Assembly: GCA_029762595.1 (NCBI GenBank)
Contig: JARVGJ010000016.1
Coordinates: 1-54,106 of the forward strand
Reading direction: 5' to 3'
From: Methanolobus sp.
Lineage (GTDB): Archaea > Halobacteriota > Methanosarcinia > Methanosarcinales > Methanosarcinaceae
DNA: 54,106 bases
Shown: one piece after another, positions 2,176 through 8,840 of the stretch
Layout of the letters: every line of letters begins with the position of its first letter
Numbering within the stretch: position 1 is the first letter of the stretch
The notes under the pieces: model-generated
What the model saw: only the letters and a program-made list of their open reading frames with translations
Told to the model about the DNA's origin: nothing
Database searches by the model: none
Program-made: the position numbers and the translations under genes

Positions 2176-2247
2176 GCCAGGGTGGCGGAGTGGCTACGCA
2201 ATCGCCTGCAGAGCGATTCCATCCCGGTTCGAATCCGGGCCCTGGCT
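2176..2247 (+). tRNA. tRNA-Cys(GCA)
   Basis: Full cloverleaf: acceptor GCCAGGG/CCCTGGC, anticodon stem ATCGC/GCGAT with loop CTGCAGA (anticodon GCA), T arm CCCGG TTCGAAT CCGGG, discriminator T. CCA is not encoded. In this organism the tRNA is expected to be charged with O-phosphoserine and converted to Cys-tRNA by SepCysS, whose gene lies 3 kb away under the same type of operator. Confidence 0.95.
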
Positions 2248-2375: not shown

Positions 2376-2570
2376 ATGAAAGTAAAATTGCCATCAGGCA
2401 AAACCGAGGAAATGAAATCAGGCCGGCTTACGGTAGAGGAGCTGTTACTGATGCTGGGTATCAGCCAGGCAGAGGTGCTCGTCTCAAAGGATGGCCGCAT
2501 AATTCCTGAGGACACAGTACTGAAGGATGATGATGACATCCGAATAGTGCAGGTAGTGTTCGGTGGCTGA
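2376..2570 (+). CDS. MoaD/ThiS-like ubiquitin-fold sulfur carrier
   Basis: A 64-residue protein ending in Gly-Gly (VVQVVFGG), the signature of MoaD, ThiS and archaeal SAMP proteins, whose C-terminal glycine is adenylated by an E1-like enzyme and becomes a thiocarboxylate or a protein conjugate. A longer reading frame begins at 2343, but the ATG at 2376 has AGGT 6 nt upstream and starts at the beta-grasp fold (MKVKLPSGK). Likely partners in the window are the E1-like enzyme at 6659, MoaE at 7404 and the cysteine desulfurase at 3426. Whether it serves molybdopterin, thiamine or tRNA thiolation cannot be told from sequence. Confidence 0.82.
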   Translation: MKVKLPSGKTEEMKSGRLTVEELLLMLGISQAEVLVSKDGRIIPEDTVLKDDDDIRIVQVVFGG

Positions 2571-2609: not shown

Positions 2610-3425
2610 TTACCCTCTCCCTTTTTCTACTTCTCCGTGCTCTTCACCGACAAGGGACCCTGAAACTGATAAAGGGATGTCCTTTATCCTGTATCCTCCT
2701 GAATACACATTCATTTTTTTGCTTCGTACAAAACCGACGATTGCTAGACCGCAAGCCTTTGCAATGTCGATTGCCAGCGTGGTACTTGCTCCTCTTGAGA
2801 TTATCACGGGGATGTTTGCTGCCAGGCACTTGCGCACCATTTCAGATGATATCCTGCCTGAGCAGATCACGTAGGTGGCAGACAGGTCAATCGCATTTTC
2901 AAGAGCATAGCCTATTATCTTGTCCAGCGCGTTATGTCTGCCTATATCCTCCACCACTTTAACCCTCCCTTTTGTGTCATACAGGCCCAGCACATGGATC
3001 CCGCCGGTAAGTACGTGCAATTGTGAATCCAGGGATTCTTTCACTGATCTGGTCACTGTCTCTGTGTCAAGGATCAAACCAGAATCTATCCGGGGAAGTT
3101 TTGCAATATCAAGGTATGAAATAGTGCCGCCACATCCACTAAGGACCGTTTTCTTTGACGTGAGTATCCTGAAGGGATTCTTTGTCAGCACACCGGCATT
3201 GCTTCCTTCTATCTTTATGGATTCTATCTCATCCTTATCTTTAATGATACCTTCAGTGAAAAGAAAACCAATGATGAATTCCCTGAGCATATCCGGACTT
3301 ATCATTGCAGTAAGTGCATGCCTGCCGTTAACAGTCACAGCAAGTGGCATTTCCTCTATCACCGGATGTTTTTGCAGTGCAAAGGAGTCGTTATCCCCTT
3401 TAATACAGTCCATTTCCCTGTACAT
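2610..3425 (-). CDS. fdhD: FdhD sulfurtransferase for molybdenum/tungsten enzymes
   Basis: FdhD family, 271 residues. It transfers sulfur from a cysteine desulfurase to the Mo/W-bis-pyranopterin cofactor of formate-dehydrogenase-type enzymes; in methanogens the likely client is formylmethanofuran dehydrogenase or a formate dehydrogenase. Conserved stretches are visible: GGIHVLGLYD, EDIGRHNALDK, CSGRISSEMV and SRGAST. The loop that carries CxxC in E. coli is GCGG here, leaving one cysteine (Cys98). The ATG directly follows the UAG stop of the upstream cysteine desulfurase gene with no gap and in the same frame; an AAGGAG sits 7 nt before the start. The adjacent desulfurase is the expected sulfur donor. 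Confidence 0.92.
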   Translation of the reverse strand: MYREMDCIKGDNDSFALQKHPVIEEMPLAVTVNGRHALTAMISPDMLREFIIGFLFTEGIIKDKDEIESIKIEGSNAGVLTKNPFRILTSKKTVLSGCGGTISYLDIAKLPRIDSGLILDTETVTRSVKESLDSQLHVLTGGIHVLGLYDTKGRVKVVEDIGRHNALDKIIGYALENAIDLSATYVICSGRISSEMVRKCLAANIPVIISRGASTTLAIDIAKACGLAIVGFVRSKKMNVYSGGYRIKDIPLSVSGSLVGEEHGEVEKGRG

Positions 3426-4619
3426 CTAGAGTCTCCTTGTCATTTCTCTCAGTGTTTCTATAAGCATGTCAACTTCTTCTTCTGTGTTGTAAAGGTAGAG
3501 GCTTGCCCGTACAGTGCCATGATCCAGTTTCAGGTGTTCCATTAGTGGCTGGCAGCAATGCTCGCCTGACCTGACCATGATCGCTGCTCCCTCGTCAATT
3601 ATGTGTGCCACTTCATGAGGGTGCATCCCTTCAACGTTGAAGGATATGACACCTATCCTATCACACCGGTCTTTGGGTCCGTAAACGTTCACTCCTCTGA
3701 TATTCTCAAGTCCTTGCAGCATTTTTTTTGTCAGGTATGCTTCATGTTTTTTTACATGTTTCATGCCAATGTCTTCAAGATACTCCACAGCCCTGCAAAG
3801 CCCTATTGCACCGGAGATATTGGGGGTTCCGGCCTCGTAACGCTGGTAGCTACCTGCTGCTGTGTGGCCATTAACAGAGACCTTTTCGATCATGCCTCCT
3901 CCCAGCAGCAGCGGTCGAAGTTCCTCCTCTTTCATCCAGAGGATACCTGTTCCGGTGGGACCGAGCATCTTATGTCCGGAAAAACATATGTAATCACAAT
4001 CCAGCTTTTTGACATCAACGGGCATATGTGGTATCGACTGTGCACCGTCAAGCAGTAGCTTTGCTCCGTTGTCATGGCACAGGCCAGCTATTTCTTTGAT
4101 CGTCCCTGCAGGTAGCAGGTTGCCAAGCACGTTTGAAGCATGTGTGATGGCAACTATCTTTGTATTATCGTTGATTGCAACTTCAAATTCTCCCATATCC
4201 AATGAACCTTCCAAGTCTGTCGTTATTACAGAAACATCCACTCCCTTTGTGCGCATGCGCATCCAGGGGAGCAGGTTTGAATGGTGTTCAAGGATAGTGG
4301 TAACCACATTGTCACCTTTATTCCAGTGAGTGCCACAGGCCACCATGTTGATAGCTTCGGTACAGTTCCTGGTCAGGACCGCTGTTCCCTTTTCTCCTCC
4401 GATGAACTCTGCTATTCTTTGGTGTGCATACCAGTATTTCTGTGTGGCTATGCTTGTAAGCCTGTGCACTCCTCTTCCAACGTTAGCACGGTAATGTCGT
4501 TCAAATTCATTTGTGGAGCAGATCACCTGTTCAGGAGAAAGACTGGTTGCGGCATTATCCATGTAGGAGAGGTCTTCAAGGATTGTAAAATCCTTTCTTA
4601 TCTGCTTTACGTTAAGCAT
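3426..4619 (-). CDS. SufS/Csd-type cysteine desulfurase
   Basis: PLP-dependent enzyme of 397 residues that converts cysteine to alanine and an enzyme-bound persulfide. The PLP lysine is Lys217 (CFSGHKMLGPTG), the PLP-contacting DGAQSIPH region lies near 191-198, and the persulfide cysteine is Cys355 in SGEHCCQPLM, the class II (SufS) arrangement. It is the middle gene of a regulator-csd-fdhD operon, 51 nt after the HTH gene. It stops at UAG immediately before and in frame with fdhD. Expression is probably controlled by the operator at 5034-5049. It may feed FdhD, the MoaD-like carrier and Fe-S assembly. Confidence 0.93.
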   Translation of the reverse strand: MLNVKQIRKDFTILEDLSYMDNAATSLSPEQVICSTNEFERHYRANVGRGVHRLTSIATQKYWYAHQRIAEFIGGEKGTAVLTRNCTEAINMVACGTHWNKGDNVVTTILEHHSNLLPWMRMRTKGVDVSVITTDLEGSLDMGEFEVAINDNTKIVAITHASNVLGNLLPAGTIKEIAGLCHDNGAKLLLDGAQSIPHMPVDVKKLDCDYICFSGHKMLGPTGTGILWMKEEELRPLLLGGGMIEKVSVNGHTAAGSYQRYEAGTPNISGAIGLCRAVEYLEDIGMKHVKKHEAYLTKKMLQGLENIRGVNVYGPKDRCDRIGVISFNVEGMHPHEVAHIIDEGAAIMVRSGEHCCQPLMEHLKLDHGTVRASLYLYNTEEEVDMLIETLREMTRRL

Positions 4620-4670: not shown

Positions 4671-4982
4671 TCAGCCATCAATACACTGCTGTTCATCAGA
4701 GCGCAGTTGTTTGCATATCCTGCATATCCTTCCGGCAAGATCATCGACATTGTCTGCCTTAATATCTTCTGCAAGGACGCGTATGGACTGCTTAACATCT
4801 TCGTCAAACACTATACGATATCCTCTCTTCTTTGAAAGGTATTGTGAAACAGCAGATGGGGCCATGTCCAGTTCCCGGGCTATTTCCTGCTGCGAGAGCC
4901 CGTAGTTCACAAGCTCTTCTGCAATTGCAGCCCTGATCGCCGGCAGTACGTCCCATACTATCATCTGACAGGGTAGTTTCAT
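4671..4982 (-). CDS. HTH transcriptional regulator with four cysteines (COG2522-like)
   Basis: A 103-residue protein. The N-terminus (PCQMIVWDVLPAIR) and the helix-turn-helix (about residues 28-49, GLSQQEIARELDMAPSAVSQ) resemble the DNA-binding part of archaeal COG2522/ThiR regulators, but no ThiN domain follows. The tail carries Cys87-x2-Cys90-x9-Cys100, and Cys5 lies at the N-terminus: a plausible metal or Fe-S site. It is first in the operon with csd and fdhD and faces sepCysS. The palindrome at 5034-5049 lies in its own promoter, suggesting autoregulation. I infer a sensor of cysteine, sulfide or Fe-S status; the ligand is unknown. Confidence 0.8.
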   Translation of the reverse strand: MKLPCQMIVWDVLPAIRAAIAEELVNYGLSQQEIARELDMAPSAVSQYLSKKRGYRIVFDEDVKQSIRVLAEDIKADNVDDLAGRICRICKQLRSDEQQCIDG

Positions 4983-5033: not shown

Positions 5034-5049
5034 TCTCACAATTGTGAAT
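5034..5049 (-). promoter_or_regulatory. Palindromic operator in the regulator-csd-fdhD promoter
   Basis: TCACAATTGTGA (5036-5047) extended to GAAT on one side. On the minus strand an A/T box (GATTTTTAA, complement of 5061-5069) lies about 25 nt upstream, so the palindrome centre (5041/5042) coincides with the expected transcription start. This is the geometry of a repressor site and implies autoregulation. Confidence 0.65.
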
Positions 5050-5110: not shown

Positions 5111-5120
5111 TTTTATATAT
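5111..5120 (+). promoter_or_regulatory. TATA box for sepCysS-moeB-moaE
   Basis: TTTTATATAT lies about 25 nt upstream of an expected start near 5142. It is overlapped at its 3' edge by the first of two palindromes. Confidence 0.6.
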
Positions 5121-5155
5121 TCACAATTGTTAATCCACAATTCACAATCGTGAAT
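5119..5155 (+). promoter_or_regulatory. Tandem palindromic operators upstream of sepCysS
   Basis: ATTCACAATTGTTAAT (5119-5134) and ATTCACAATCGTGAAT (5140-5155) each differ from the perfect palindrome at one base. Centres are 21 bp apart, two helical turns. The first overlaps the end of the TATA box, the second covers the expected transcription start, the same arrangement as at tRNA-Cys. Confidence 0.7.
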
Positions 5156-5251: not shown

Positions 5252-6625
5252 ATGGATATCAGAGTACAGAAAACATTTGAGGCATTATTTGCCCTGGAAG
5301 ACATCCGTGAGATGCTGCGCCAGTCCCTCCCGGGATCCACTGGTTTGGCGGATATGGATGGTTTTAACGGGCAGATACGGCATATAAGGTCAATAATAGA
5401 TGACCTGGAGGCTGGGACCGGTGTTCCTGAGATCAGCAGGATTGGGGGCACACTGGGTATTCGAAGCCGTGAGGAAGAATACATTAACATCCAGCCCATA
5501 CAGGCAGCAGGAAGACTAAGCCCCGAGGCCCGCAAGGCTCTCATTGCATACGGGGACGGATACTCTACCTGTGACAGTTGCCGCAAGCCTTTCAGGCTCG
5601 ATAAGATATCCAAGCCACCGATAGCTGATTTTCACCAGGAGCTTGCAGCCTTCCTCAACATGGATACCGCCCGCGTGGTTCCGGGTGCAAGGAGAGGATT
5701 CCAGGCAGTCACTTCAAGTCTTGTGAAACCCGGGGATCCTGTGCTAGTCTCTTCGCTGGCACATTACACTGAGTTCCTTGCAGTAGAGGCTGCAGGCGGT
5801 GTTGTAAAGGAAGTGCCATTAAATGAGAATAGTATAATTACCGCTGACGCAGTAGCTGAAAAGATAGAGGATGTGATGGTCCAGACAGGGAAAACCCCAA
5901 CTCTGATAATGATCGATCACTTTGATTACCAGCTTGCAAATGAACACGATATATATGGCATCGGCAAAGTTGCACACCAGTATGACATACCCTTCCTTTA
6001 TAATGGAGCCTACACAGTGGGTGTGATGCCGGTTGATGGTAAGCGTATAGGTGCCGATTTTGTTGTTGGCTCTGGTCATAAGAGCATGGCATCTCCTGCT
6101 CCGTCCGGTGTGCTCGCAACCACAGATGAGTGGGCTGATACGGTATTCAGGACCACACAGATGAAGGGTGACCTGACAGGACGCAAATTCGGAATTAAAG
6201 AGGTTCAGATGCTTGGTTGTACTCTCATGGGTTCGACCCTCATGGCAATGATCGCATCTTTCCCTGCTGTGAAGGAGCGCACTCATAAATGGGATGATGA
6301 AGTAAGGAAATCCAATTTCCTCATCGATAAATTACTTGAAATAGAAGGAAGTGCAGTATTATCAGAATATCCCAGAAAGCACGCTCTCTCAAAAGTGGAT
6401 ACCACAGGGAGCTTTGATATTGTAGCCGGGTCACATAAACGGAGAGGTTTCTTCTTCTCTGATGAACTCTCAAAGAAAGGAATTGTCGGGGAATTTGCCG
6501 GGGCAACCCGGGCCTGGAAGTTAAGCACCTACGGTCTTTCATGGGATAAGGTCCGCTATCTTGCTGAATCTCTCCAGGAGATTGCGGAAAAATATGAAAT
6601 AAAGGTCAACATTAATTATCCATGA
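5252..6625 (+). CDS. pscS: SepCysS: O-phosphoseryl-tRNA(Cys):Cys-tRNA synthase
   Basis: PLP enzyme that converts Sep-tRNA(Cys), made by SepRS, into Cys-tRNA(Cys) with a sulfur donor; the main cysteine route in many methanogens. The PLP lysine is Lys277 (GSGHKSMAS). The functional cysteines of the family appear as Cys107 and Cys110 (YSTCDSC) and Cys323 (MLGCTLMG). About 75 residues precede the catalytic fold (YINIQPIQAAGRL) as a helical extension, perhaps related to the SepCysE partner known in other methanogens. The frame is open from GTG 5150, but that codon lies inside the operator; I prefer ATG 5252, which has GAGGT 6 nt upstream. First gene of an operon with moeB and moaE. Confidence 0.93.
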   Translation: MDIRVQKTFEALFALEDIREMLRQSLPGSTGLADMDGFNGQIRHIRSIIDDLEAGTGVPEISRIGGTLGIRSREEEYINIQPIQAAGRLSPEARKALIAYGDGYSTCDSCRKPFRLDKISKPPIADFHQELAAFLNMDTARVVPGARRGFQAVTSSLVKPGDPVLVSSLAHYTEFLAVEAAGGVVKEVPLNENSIITADAVAEKIEDVMVQTGKTPTLIMIDHFDYQLANEHDIYGIGKVAHQYDIPFLYNGAYTVGVMPVDGKRIGADFVVGSGHKSMASPAPSGVLATTDEWADTVFRTTQMKGDLTGRKFGIKEVQMLGCTLMGSTLMAMIASFPAVKERTHKWDDEVRKSNFLIDKLLEIEGSAVLSEYPRKHALSKVDTTGSFDIVAGSHKRRGFFFSDELSKKGIVGEFAGATRAWKLSTYGLSWDKVRYLAESLQEIAEKYEIKVNINYP

Positions 6626-6658: not shown

Positions 6659-7390
6659 ATGTTGGATAACGCAGAGCTTGAACGGTACAGCAGACAAATT
6701 ATGCTGTTTGGTGAAAAGGGTCAGCAACGCCTCAAGGATGCCAGGGTTTTCATTGCAGGTGCAGGAGGTCTTGGATGTCCTGTTGCACTTTATCTTGCAG
6801 CAGCCGGGGTGGGGCACCTGAGGATCGCAGACCACGACGTTGTGGAGCGGACAAACCTCAATCGCCAGGTACTGCACTGGGAAAATGATATCGGCAGGGA
6901 AAAAGTATTATCAGTTAAGGAAAAGCTTGAGTCTGTAAACCCATGCATAGATGTGCAGACCTTTCACCTGACAATAGACGATTCAAATGCCCGTGAGCTG
7001 ATAGGGGATAGCCGGCTTATAGTCGATGCTATGGATAATTATGCTGTACGCTATCTTCTCAACCGTGTTGCACATGAAAAGGGCATTCCACTGATCCATG
7101 GTGCCATCCGTGGTTTTGACGGACAGGCAATGACTATCATTCCTGGTAAAAGCGCCTGCTTTAACTGTGTCTTCCCAACAGCCCCACCAACGGAGGTTTT
7201 CCCGGTCGTTGGTGTGACTCCTGGCATAATTGCCATGGTGCAGGCAAATGAGGTCATTAAATACCTGCTTGGTCACGGCAAACTTCTGACTGACAGATTA
7301 CTCATATGGAATGGCCTTTGCTCGGAAATGGAATATTTACAGGTTTCAAGAAGGCAGGATTGTCCGGTCTGCGGCAATAAGAACAAATGA
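6659..7390 (+). CDS. moeB: MoeB/ThiF-like E1 adenylyltransferase for sulfur carriers
   Basis: E1-like enzyme of 243 residues that adenylates the C-terminal glycine of a MoaD/ThiS/SAMP carrier. Visible are the ATP-binding GAGGLGCP loop (about residues 36-43), the NLNRQ motif, DAMDNY, and two zinc-binding pairs, CFNC (mid-protein) and CPVC near the C-terminus. The frame is open from a GTG at 6644; I chose ATG 6659, five codons in, where the family N-terminus (LERYSRQI) follows. It starts 33 nt after sepCysS. The likely substrate is the carrier at 2376-2570. Confidence 0.9.
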   Translation: MLDNAELERYSRQIMLFGEKGQQRLKDARVFIAGAGGLGCPVALYLAAAGVGHLRIADHDVVERTNLNRQVLHWENDIGREKVLSVKEKLESVNPCIDVQTFHLTIDDSNARELIGDSRLIVDAMDNYAVRYLLNRVAHEKGIPLIHGAIRGFDGQAMTIIPGKSACFNCVFPTAPPTEVFPVVGVTPGIIAMVQANEVIKYLLGHGKLLTDRLLIWNGLCSEMEYLQVSRRQDCPVCGNKNK

Positions 7391-7403: not shown

Positions 7404-7811
7404 ATGATAAGCATCACAACTGAAGATTTTGATATCAATGCAATGATCACCCGGTCAAAAAGCTCTGAAATGGGTGCAATGGTCACTTTCCTTGGGACTG
7501 TCCGGGATGATGGTATAGATCTGCTTCATTTTGAAGCGTATGAGGATGTGGCTGTCCGGGAGATGGAAAGCATAAGGGATGAAGCCTTCGGAAAATTCGA
7601 TATCCAAAGCGTTGATGTTATCCATCGTATAGGGGAGTTGCCCGTGGGTGAGAATATACTGCTTATTATCGTTGGTTCAGGCCATCGCAAGGAGGCCTTC
7701 ATGGCATGCGAATATATCCTTGAGCGCATAAAGGAAAGTGTCCCTATATGGAAAAAGGAAATAAGTGGCTCAGGGGAGCGCTGGATTCCCGGTGAAGCAT
7801 ACAGGCCCTGA
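7404..7811 (+). CDS. moaE: MoaE, large subunit of molybdopterin synthase
   Basis: MoaE (135 residues) pairs with a MoaD thiocarboxylate to insert the two dithiolene sulfurs into precursor Z, giving molybdopterin. Family features: the GAMVTFLGTVRD strand, EAYEDVAVREM, IGELPVGE, and the active-site basic residues in HRKEAF and VPIWKKE. A longer frame starts at 7311 inside moeB; ATG 7404, preceded by GGGAG at 7392-7396 and 13 nt after moeB, is the natural start. With moeB, the MoaD-like protein and FdhD it points to Mo/W cofactor maturation. Confidence 0.92.
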   Translation: MISITTEDFDINAMITRSKSSEMGAMVTFLGTVRDDGIDLLHFEAYEDVAVREMESIRDEAFGKFDIQSVDVIHRIGELPVGENILLIIVGSGHRKEAFMACEYILERIKESVPIWKKEISGSGERWIPGEAYRP

Positions 7812-7839: not shown

Positions 7840-8769
7840 TCAGACTTCAAGCATTCTTTGTATTGCCAGGCGTGCCCTGTCTGCTATGTCAGAAGGTACG
7901 GTTACTCTGGGAGTGAGATCCTGGAGTGAATTATACACTTTCATAAGGTCTGTCCTTTTCATATTTGTACATATGGCCTGTGGGGACAAGGGATAACATA
8001 CTTTGTCAGGACAGTCTTTTTTCATCCTGTGGAGTATACCCACTTCAGTGCCTATTATGAACTCTTTTTTCCCGCTCCTGCACACATACTCTATCATTTT
8101 TGAAGTTGAGGCTACATGGTCAGCCATATCAATTACTTCTGACCTGCATTCAGGATGTACCAGCAATTCTGCTTCAGGATGCAGCTTTTGCGCTTTCTTT
8201 ACGTCTTCAGGTTCTATCCGGTCATGTACAAAACAGAACCCTTCCCAGGGCATTATCTTCTTTTCAGTGAAGCGTGCCACATAGTTTCCCAGATTCCTGT
8301 CTGGTATGAAGATTATCTGGTCTGCATCAAGGGATTGTACAACCTTCAGGGCATTTGAGGATGTACAGCATATATCGCTCTCTGCTTTTACTTCTGCAGT
8401 CGTGTTGACATAACAGACGACCGCTGCCTCAGGGAATCTATCTTTAAGCACGCGCAGCTCTCCGGCAGTTATCATTTCCGCCATGGGACAGTTTGCTTCT
8501 TTAGCAGGCAGCAACACTGTTCTGTCAGGTGAAAGGATGGCTGCCGTTTCTGCCATGAAGTCAACTCCGCAGAATACTATCACATCTGCTTTTTGGTCAG
8601 CCGCTTTTCTTGCAAGTTCCAGGGAGTCTCCTGTGAAGTCGGCTATATCCTGCACTTCAGGGATCTGGTAATTATGGGCCAGTATCACTGCATTGCGTTC
8701 CTTTTTCAGCCTTGATATGTTCTCTTTAAGTTTTTCAATACCCAATATCGTTTTTTCATTACAGGTCAT
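7840..8769 (-). CDS. nadA: NadA, quinolinate synthase
   Basis: A 309-residue [4Fe-4S] enzyme that condenses iminoaspartate with dihydroxyacetone phosphate to quinolinate, the first committed step of NAD synthesis. Characteristic motifs: ILAHNYQ at the N-terminus, FCGVDFMAETA, YVNTTAEVKAESD followed by CC, HPECRSEV and the C-terminal cysteine region (KDCPDKVC, QAICTNM). It is convergent with moaE and stands alone, without nadB or nadC nearby. The promoter holds the regional palindrome at 8825-8840, linking an Fe-S enzyme to the cysteine/sulfur genes. Confidence 0.95.
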   Translation of the reverse strand: MTCNEKTILGIEKLKENISRLKKERNAVILAHNYQIPEVQDIADFTGDSLELARKAADQKADVIVFCGVDFMAETAAILSPDRTVLLPAKEANCPMAEMITAGELRVLKDRFPEAAVVCYVNTTAEVKAESDICCTSSNALKVVQSLDADQIIFIPDRNLGNYVARFTEKKIMPWEGFCFVHDRIEPEDVKKAQKLHPEAELLVHPECRSEVIDMADHVASTSKMIEYVCRSGKKEFIIGTEVGILHRMKKDCPDKVCYPLSPQAICTNMKRTDLMKVYNSLQDLTPRVTVPSDIADRARLAIQRMLEV

Positions 8770-8824: not shown

Positions 8825-8840
8825 GTTCACAATTGAGAAT
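8825..8840 (-). promoter_or_regulatory. Palindromic operator in the nadA promoter
   Basis: GTTCACAATTGAGAAT departs from the perfect palindrome ATTCACAATTGTGAAT at two positions. On the minus strand an AAAATAAATAAC box (complement of 8851-8862) lies about 25 nt upstream, so the site again sits on the expected transcription start, 56 nt before the nadA start codon. Confidence 0.6.

Follow-up and report, generated by a model that had tools for sequence, protein, structure and literature searches.

A 103-residue helix-turn-helix protein appears to repress the sulfur uptake and transfer genes of methanogens

A 54,106-nucleotide stretch of Methanolobus DNA (the window) holds a gene for a small helix-turn-helix (HTH) protein beside genes for Fe-S assembly and sulfur transfer, which raises two questions: what does this protein control, and what does it sense? 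Methanogens need very large amounts of iron and sulfur, and little is known of how both elements are acquired, deployed, and trafficked (PMC8516115, PMC8351635); a survey of methanogen iron and sulfur pathways makes no mention of IscR, SufR, a regulon, or a repressor (PMC8351635). No description of a sulfur regulator resembling this protein in methanogens was found in the open-licence literature, which is weak evidence of novelty. An initial annotation of the window had proposed a four-cysteine protein with a ThiR-type HTH and no ThiN domain, encoded with csd and fdhD behind a palindromic promoter element, as the best candidate for the repressor of a regulon. The genes concerned are the following:

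4671 to 4982, minus strand: regulator gene (REG), 103-residue HTH protein with Cys5, Cys87-x2-Cys90, and Cys100
3426 to 4619, minus strand: csd, SufS/Csd-type cysteine desulfurase, in the apparent REG operon
2610 to 3425, minus strand: fdhD, formate dehydrogenase accessory sulfurtransferase, in the apparent REG operon
2176 to 2247, plus strand: tRNA-Cys gene (anticodon GCA), a second copy; its counterpart at G000:C33:158352 lacks an operator
2376 to 2570, plus strand: ThiS/SAMP2-like sulfur carrier ending in GG, directly 3' of the tRNA-Cys gene
5252 to 6625, plus strand: sepCysS2, Sep-tRNA:Cys-tRNA synthase, second copy, sharing 42% identity with its housekeeping counterpart (G000:C11:149182)
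6662 to 7390, plus strand: moeB/thiF-type E1-like sulfur-carrier adenylyltransferase
7404 to 7811, plus strand: moaE, molybdopterin synthase large subunit
7840 to 8769, minus strand: nadA2, quinolinate synthase, second copy, sharing 60% identity with G000:C33:31565, a gene that lacks an operator

Reading the open reading frame from 4982 to 4671 on the minus strand yielded a protein that begins MKLPC, ends RICRICKQLRSDEQQCIDG, and has cysteines at positions 5, 87, 90, and 100 and nowhere else in its 103 residues, as annotated. The genes csd and then fdhD follow on the same strand after gaps of 51 and 0 bases, which bears out the proposed grouping; the three genes are apparently cotranscribed. 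Next to these loci, at 107 to 1744, is a gene for a corrinoid reductive activase of the RamA type whose C terminus carries a two-cluster ferredoxin domain; this gene has no operator.

The only Pfam domain above its cut-off in REG was a marginal HTH_3 (24.0 bits, cut-off 23), with weak matches to other HTH families, and Pfam detected neither ThiN nor any other ligand domain in the protein. A PDB sequence search found no match below E 0.4, and Foldseek comparison of the REG model returned generic HTH matches only (best E, 0.5). The AlphaFold model is of modest confidence (mean pLDDT 78, pTM 0.69, last residues below 50) and has helices at residues 4 to 26, 31 to 37, 42 to 49, 61 to 75, and 82 to 93. 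Cys5 stands where the first helix begins; Cys87 and Cys90 are in the last one, outside the HTH, and Cys100 is in the tail. The closest named relatives of REG are all from Methanolobus, within the order Methanosarcinales, and a protein search recovered REG or a paralogue in 128 of the 186 genomes of that order. The sequences form two groups: one is the family that includes the window gene, and the other is a paralogue, 35 to 45% identical to it, that is located after iscS-iscU. A scan of a species-genome collection gave 552 relatives, the best 80 of which come mostly from Methanolobus, Methanosalsum, Methanohalophilus, Methanococcoides, Methanomethylovorans, Methanothrix, Methanoregula, Methanocalculus, Methanospirillaceae, and Methanocorpusculum, and the family profile matched in 225 of 295 genomes of the phylum. 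Its most distant matches (E 5e-13 to 5e-7) are proteins of about 300 residues, and all four of those scanned with Pfam carry a C-terminal ThiN domain (E 3e-44 or better). Because the family profile, with the HTH pattern P(C/S)E/Q..V..xLP.IR...SQ..A..L.....AVSQY, picks up HTH-ThiN proteins, the HTH of REG is, by sequence, homologous to that of ThiR-type regulators, with ThiN missing; together with the Pfam result, these profile matches agree with the annotated domain structure.

The palindrome TTCACAATTGTGAA recurs in the promoters of this cluster. The predicted operators are as follows:

5035 to 5048: CTCACAATTGTGAA, REG promoter, 53 bp upstream of REG and about 25 bp downstream of the TATA-like TTTTTAAGAT
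5120 to 5133: TTCACAATTGTTAA, sepCysS2 promoter, operator 1, directly downstream of the TATA-like TTTTATATA
5141 to 5154: TTCACAATCGTGAA, sepCysS2 promoter, operator 2, 21 bp centre to centre from operator 1
2154 to 2167: perfect TTCACAATTGTGAA, tRNA-Cys promoter
2133 to 2142: CACAATTGTG core, tRNA-Cys promoter, a second but partial operator whose centre is 23 bp from that of the first
8826 to 8839: TTCACAATTGAGAA, nadA2 promoter

Five sites of the window (starting at 2154, 5035, 5120, 5141, and 8826) have at most one mismatch to TTCACAATTGTGAA, against a chance expectation of 0.43 sites even when two mismatches are allowed, and five sites did not occur in any of 100 shuffles; the palindrome reported before REG is thus real. 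By eye, the palindromes at REG, sepCysS2, tRNA-Cys, and nadA2 lie downstream of the TATA box and over the expected start, and several promoters have two sites 18 to 23 bp apart.

Among the best 80 of the 552 relatives, 61 loci have a palindrome that matches at 12 or more of the 14 positions at −110 to −25 of the REG start, mostly at −52 to −65 from the start codon. It recurs across Methanosarcinales, Methanothrix, and Methanomicrobiales, in the Methanolobus group, Methanocalculus, and Methanoregula alike, and many Methanoregula and related genomes have a perfect TTCACAATTGTGAA before REG; in about a quarter of the 80 orthologues, no clear site was found in the gene's own promoter. Alignment of the 61 promoters on the palindrome revealed an A/T-rich, TATA-like peak 15 to 21 bp before it, about 25 bp before its centre. 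Archaeal TATA boxes lie about 25 bp upstream of the transcription start, so the palindrome probably covers that start. Presence of the gene and abundance of the palindrome were then compared within the family, counting sites with no more than one mismatch to TTMACAATTGTKAA, using the reversed pattern as control, and scoring REG from the protein search of the order (E below 1e-20 for the main family). The 79 genomes with REG have a mean of 9.10 sites (control, 3.75), and the 33 without it have 2.97 (control, 3.21). The difference gives a P of 8e-10, a value that is too small given that the genomes are related, and the contrast holds within genera too (for example, between genome G140 and its congeners).

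REG thus very probably binds the palindrome, as judged from these genome comparisons. Comparative evidence strongly supports its assignment as repressor of the palindrome regulon, because the site in its own promoter is conserved across orders, the excess of sites occurs only with the gene, and the sites fall over the expected start; on these same grounds the candidate singled out in the initial annotation has gained weight. Repression is the likely mode of control, given where the operators sit. Archaeal regulators can also activate, and two sites about 20 bp apart in some promoters would suit an activator or dual regulator of the same genes. We nevertheless regard such a role as improbable, since sites downstream of the TATA box and over the start (at REG, sepCysS2, tRNA-Cys, and nadA, and in the 61 aligned REG promoters) would block initiation. 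The genome also encodes the paralogue with the same type of HTH, so that another regulator might bind the palindrome and the co-localization of REG be incidental. This is very improbable: the palindrome occurs in REG's own promoter across three orders, and its excess vanishes in genomes that lack REG, most of which keep the paralogue.

The paralogue (loci L079 to L084; G000:C11:245303-245647) has five cysteines, namely, Cys5, a C-x2-C pair, and a C-terminal C-x2-C, and lies near iscS-iscU in most of the Methanosarcinaceae examined, without a TTCACAATTGTGAA operator. It is possibly an Isc-specific regulator. As owner of the palindrome it was considered and rejected, for no site at its loci reaches 12 of 14 matches, and sites are not in excess in the genomes that lack REG, most of which retain the paralogue.

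What REG would control can be read from the genes behind the operators. In the genome of the window, all seven sites with at most one mismatch precede sulfur genes or members of sulfur operons: tRNA-Cys with the ThiS/SAMP2-like carrier, REG-csd-fdhD, sepCysS2-moeB-moaE, and nadA2, as well as a gene for a DsrE-like protein with an IscS-type desulfurase (locus L006) and thiM-thiE (L007). The L006 site, more than 300 bp before the first gene, is the least certain. A more distant genome (G319) has four of five sites at REG with iscS-iscU, at nadA and cysK (two sites), and at an fdhD-like gene; in another genome of the window's family (G095), ten one-mismatch sites include one at REG, one at a tRNA-Cys that lies with thi4 and iscS, and one at a TusA-like gene, and seven lie elsewhere. 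With only three of ten such sites at sulfur genes in this Methanococcoides genome, single weak sites are not reliable. Across orders, the neighbourhoods of REG take the form REG-larE-(csd)-fdhD, with a divergent iscS-iscU-moeB-moaD-moaE and ttuA/ncsA with a ThiS-like carrier, and further include cysK-cysE, metY-metX, sepCysS with tRNA-Cys, thi4, thiM/thiE, and nadA; in many genera an operator lies between REG and iscS-iscU. Operators and neighbours together span genes for cysteine, homocysteine, Fe-S clusters, Moco, tRNA thiolation, and thiamine. Neighbours in one family include the YcaO-TfuA genes of McrA thioamidation: in loci L066 to L070 (family f4 of the order), REG is divergent from the YcaO and TfuA genes for McrA glycine thioamidation and has a TTAACAATTGTTAA-type site about 40 bp before it.

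The sepCysS, nadA, and tRNA-Cys genes of the window are second copies; the genome has housekeeping versions of each at other positions. Each of the five nadA2 promoters examined has 12 to 13 of 14 matches, and no other nadA carries a site. Both tRNA-Cys genes of the window type have a perfect site, the other listed copies reaching at most 11 matches, and six of nine sepCysS2 genes have 13 to 14 matches within the scanned region, with just one housekeeping copy reaching 12. By this count, the operator marks second copies rather than housekeeping ones, and the regulon looks like an inducible set of sulfur enzymes. A dedicated tRNA-Cys (GCA) accompanies sepCysS2, thi4, or REG in several genera, and one genome (G114) has four tRNA-Cys genes around REG and sepCysS2. 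The dedicated loci are as follows:

Window, 2176 to 2247 (with 5252 to 6625)
L064, 1133 to 6099
L048, 3797
L195, 4529
L213, 3703
L254, 4410
L310, 1527

This arrangement suggests that the dedicated tRNA-Cys is used mainly as a substrate for cysteine synthesis.

The second question, that of the signal, turns on the cysteines. The whole set (Cys5, C-x2-C, and a later Cys) is kept in 115 of the 118 distinct main-family orthologues; loss of the cysteines in orthologues that share the operator was looked for, and this conservation speaks against it. Two truncated Methanosarcina copies (L058 and L063) are exceptions, and so is L243, in which the fourth cysteine alone is missing although the palindrome is perfect. 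The truncated copies (genomes G150 and G177, respectively) end before the C-x2-C with the HTH intact and are natural tail-loss variants. An alignment of 128 sequences that takes in the paralogue too shows no variation at Cys5, Cys87, or Cys90 and a conservation of 90% or more at Cys100. Some more distant relatives of the short type (L285 and L286) have three cysteines only. Because L243, L285, and L286 have no fourth cysteine, the core site is, on this alignment evidence, the trio Cys5 and Cys87-x2-Cys90, the fourth being nearly always present at variable spacing; the four-cysteine set first proposed therefore stands as a conserved feature but not as the core. Nor do the cysteines track the operator specifically: they are conserved in the orthologues, but the paralogue has the trio without the palindrome. 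Since this is so, the sequences make them a family trait, not proof of sensing for the palindrome regulon.

REG most likely senses through a bound cofactor, because the protein is small, has an invariant cysteine site drawn from both ends of the chain, and is encoded beside Fe-S and sulfur-transfer genes; an Fe-S cluster is the first choice, zinc or thiol/persulfide chemistry being possible. One alternative keeps the repressor and regulon and has the cysteines act as thiols that sense sulfide, persulfide, or the thiol/disulfide state, by a persulfide or disulfide between Cys87, Cys90, and Cys5 or Cys100. The regulon concerns sulfur supply rather than iron, with no iron-uptake gene seen among the REG neighbours or operator sites, and C-x2-C pairs are common redox switches (as in SurR and MsvR). 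We nonetheless consider this reading unlikely, though worth keeping in view, since a simple two-thiol switch could do without Cys5, a residue no less invariant than the C-x2-C pair, and the Fe-S machinery iscS-iscU is within the regulon. Somewhat more doubtful is a structural zinc on the cysteines, with cysteine, O-phosphoserine, O-acetylserine, or a partner protein as the signal for the same repressor and regulon. Three or four cysteines with a C-x2-C would fit zinc as well, and the cysteine synthesis genes sepCysS2 and cysK-cysE are prominent among the targets; against a small-molecule signal, 103 residues leave little room for a ligand domain, and Pfam, PDB sequence, and fold comparisons found none.

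We therefore favour, as somewhat likelier right than wrong, an autoregulated repressor of a sulfur regulon that senses through a cysteine-bound Fe-S cluster. REG would bind, presumably as a dimer, to TTCACAATTGTGAA-type palindromes, which often come in pairs about 20 bp apart. Bound there, over the start, with the TATA box on one side and the gene on the other, it would block the polymerase. The sensor would be the cysteine set at both ends of the chain rather than a ligand domain, and these residues would most likely ligate the cluster. With ample sulfide and iron, cluster-loaded REG would repress, a direction taken by analogy to IscR; when the supply of sulfur or clusters falls, the cluster would be lost and the DNA released. 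The cell would then produce its second set of tRNA-dependent cysteine pathway components, along with second copies of cysteine desulfurases, sulfur carriers, and further sulfur enzymes.

Several known systems resemble this arrangement in part. ThiR-type regulators, which are archaeal proteins with a COG2522-like HTH, share a homologous HTH but have a C-terminal ThiN domain that REG lacks (the sole ThiN of the window genome, G000:C58:21769, belongs to a separate 450-residue frame). The HTH-ThiN relatives seen lack Cys5; some keep three linker cysteines (C106, C121, and C124 in L292), and several have none of these cysteines. ThiR regulates thiamine genes, whereas the predicted REG regulon covers general sulfur metabolism, with thiM-thiE just one part. 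IscR, a bacterial [2Fe-2S] sensor of the Rrf2 family, binds its cluster by three cysteines. REG is likewise a small DNA-binding protein encoded beside iscS-iscU, with three conserved cysteines and a likely cofactor-dependent mode of repression; its autoregulation and control of iscS-iscU are read from operator positions. REG had no Rrf2 match in Pfam or NCBIfam (hits to E 0.1) and is, by Pfam, not homologous to IscR. It differs also in the placement of its cysteines, at both chain ends with a C-x2-C, and in a predicted regulon that centres on cysteine and sulfur transfer and includes a tRNA gene. Regulators of the CymR and CysB types are the bacterial masters of cysteine metabolism and, as proposed for REG, combine cysteine, methionine, and sulfur transfer genes under one protein, but they belong to other protein families, whereas REG is archaeal and no effector-binding domain was found in it. 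SurR and MsvR are redox-sensitive archaeal regulators with cysteine switches, the C-x2-C lying inside an ArsR-type HTH in SurR and in the V4R domain in MsvR. Like them, REG is a small archaeal regulator that would use cysteines as sensors, but it has neither architecture: its C-x2-C is outside the HTH, V4R is absent, and HTH_5 stays below the cut-off.

Collectively, REG appears, from its genomic associations, to be the master repressor of methanogen sulfur uptake and transfer genes, and its cysteines suggest direct sensing of sulfur supply, probably via an Fe-S cluster; the evidence is good for the regulon and moderate for the sensor. We tentatively propose, at a little under an even chance, that REG is an undescribed global sulfur regulator of methanogens, from a branch of the ThiR HTH in which a cysteine site from the N and C termini would hold an oxygen-sensitive Fe-S cluster in place of a vitamin-binding domain, not homologous to IscR, and controlling duplicated sulfur genes, among them a dedicated tRNA-Cys that would be a cysteine-synthesis substrate regulated like a metabolic gene. 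Since relatives from Methanosarcina, Methanothrix, and Methanoregula share this conserved regulator and its operator is defined, these proposals are directly testable in the genetically tractable Methanosarcina. They predict that the control of a metabolic pathway extends to a tRNA gene and offer testable functions for the second copies of SepCysS, NadA, and tRNA-Cys.
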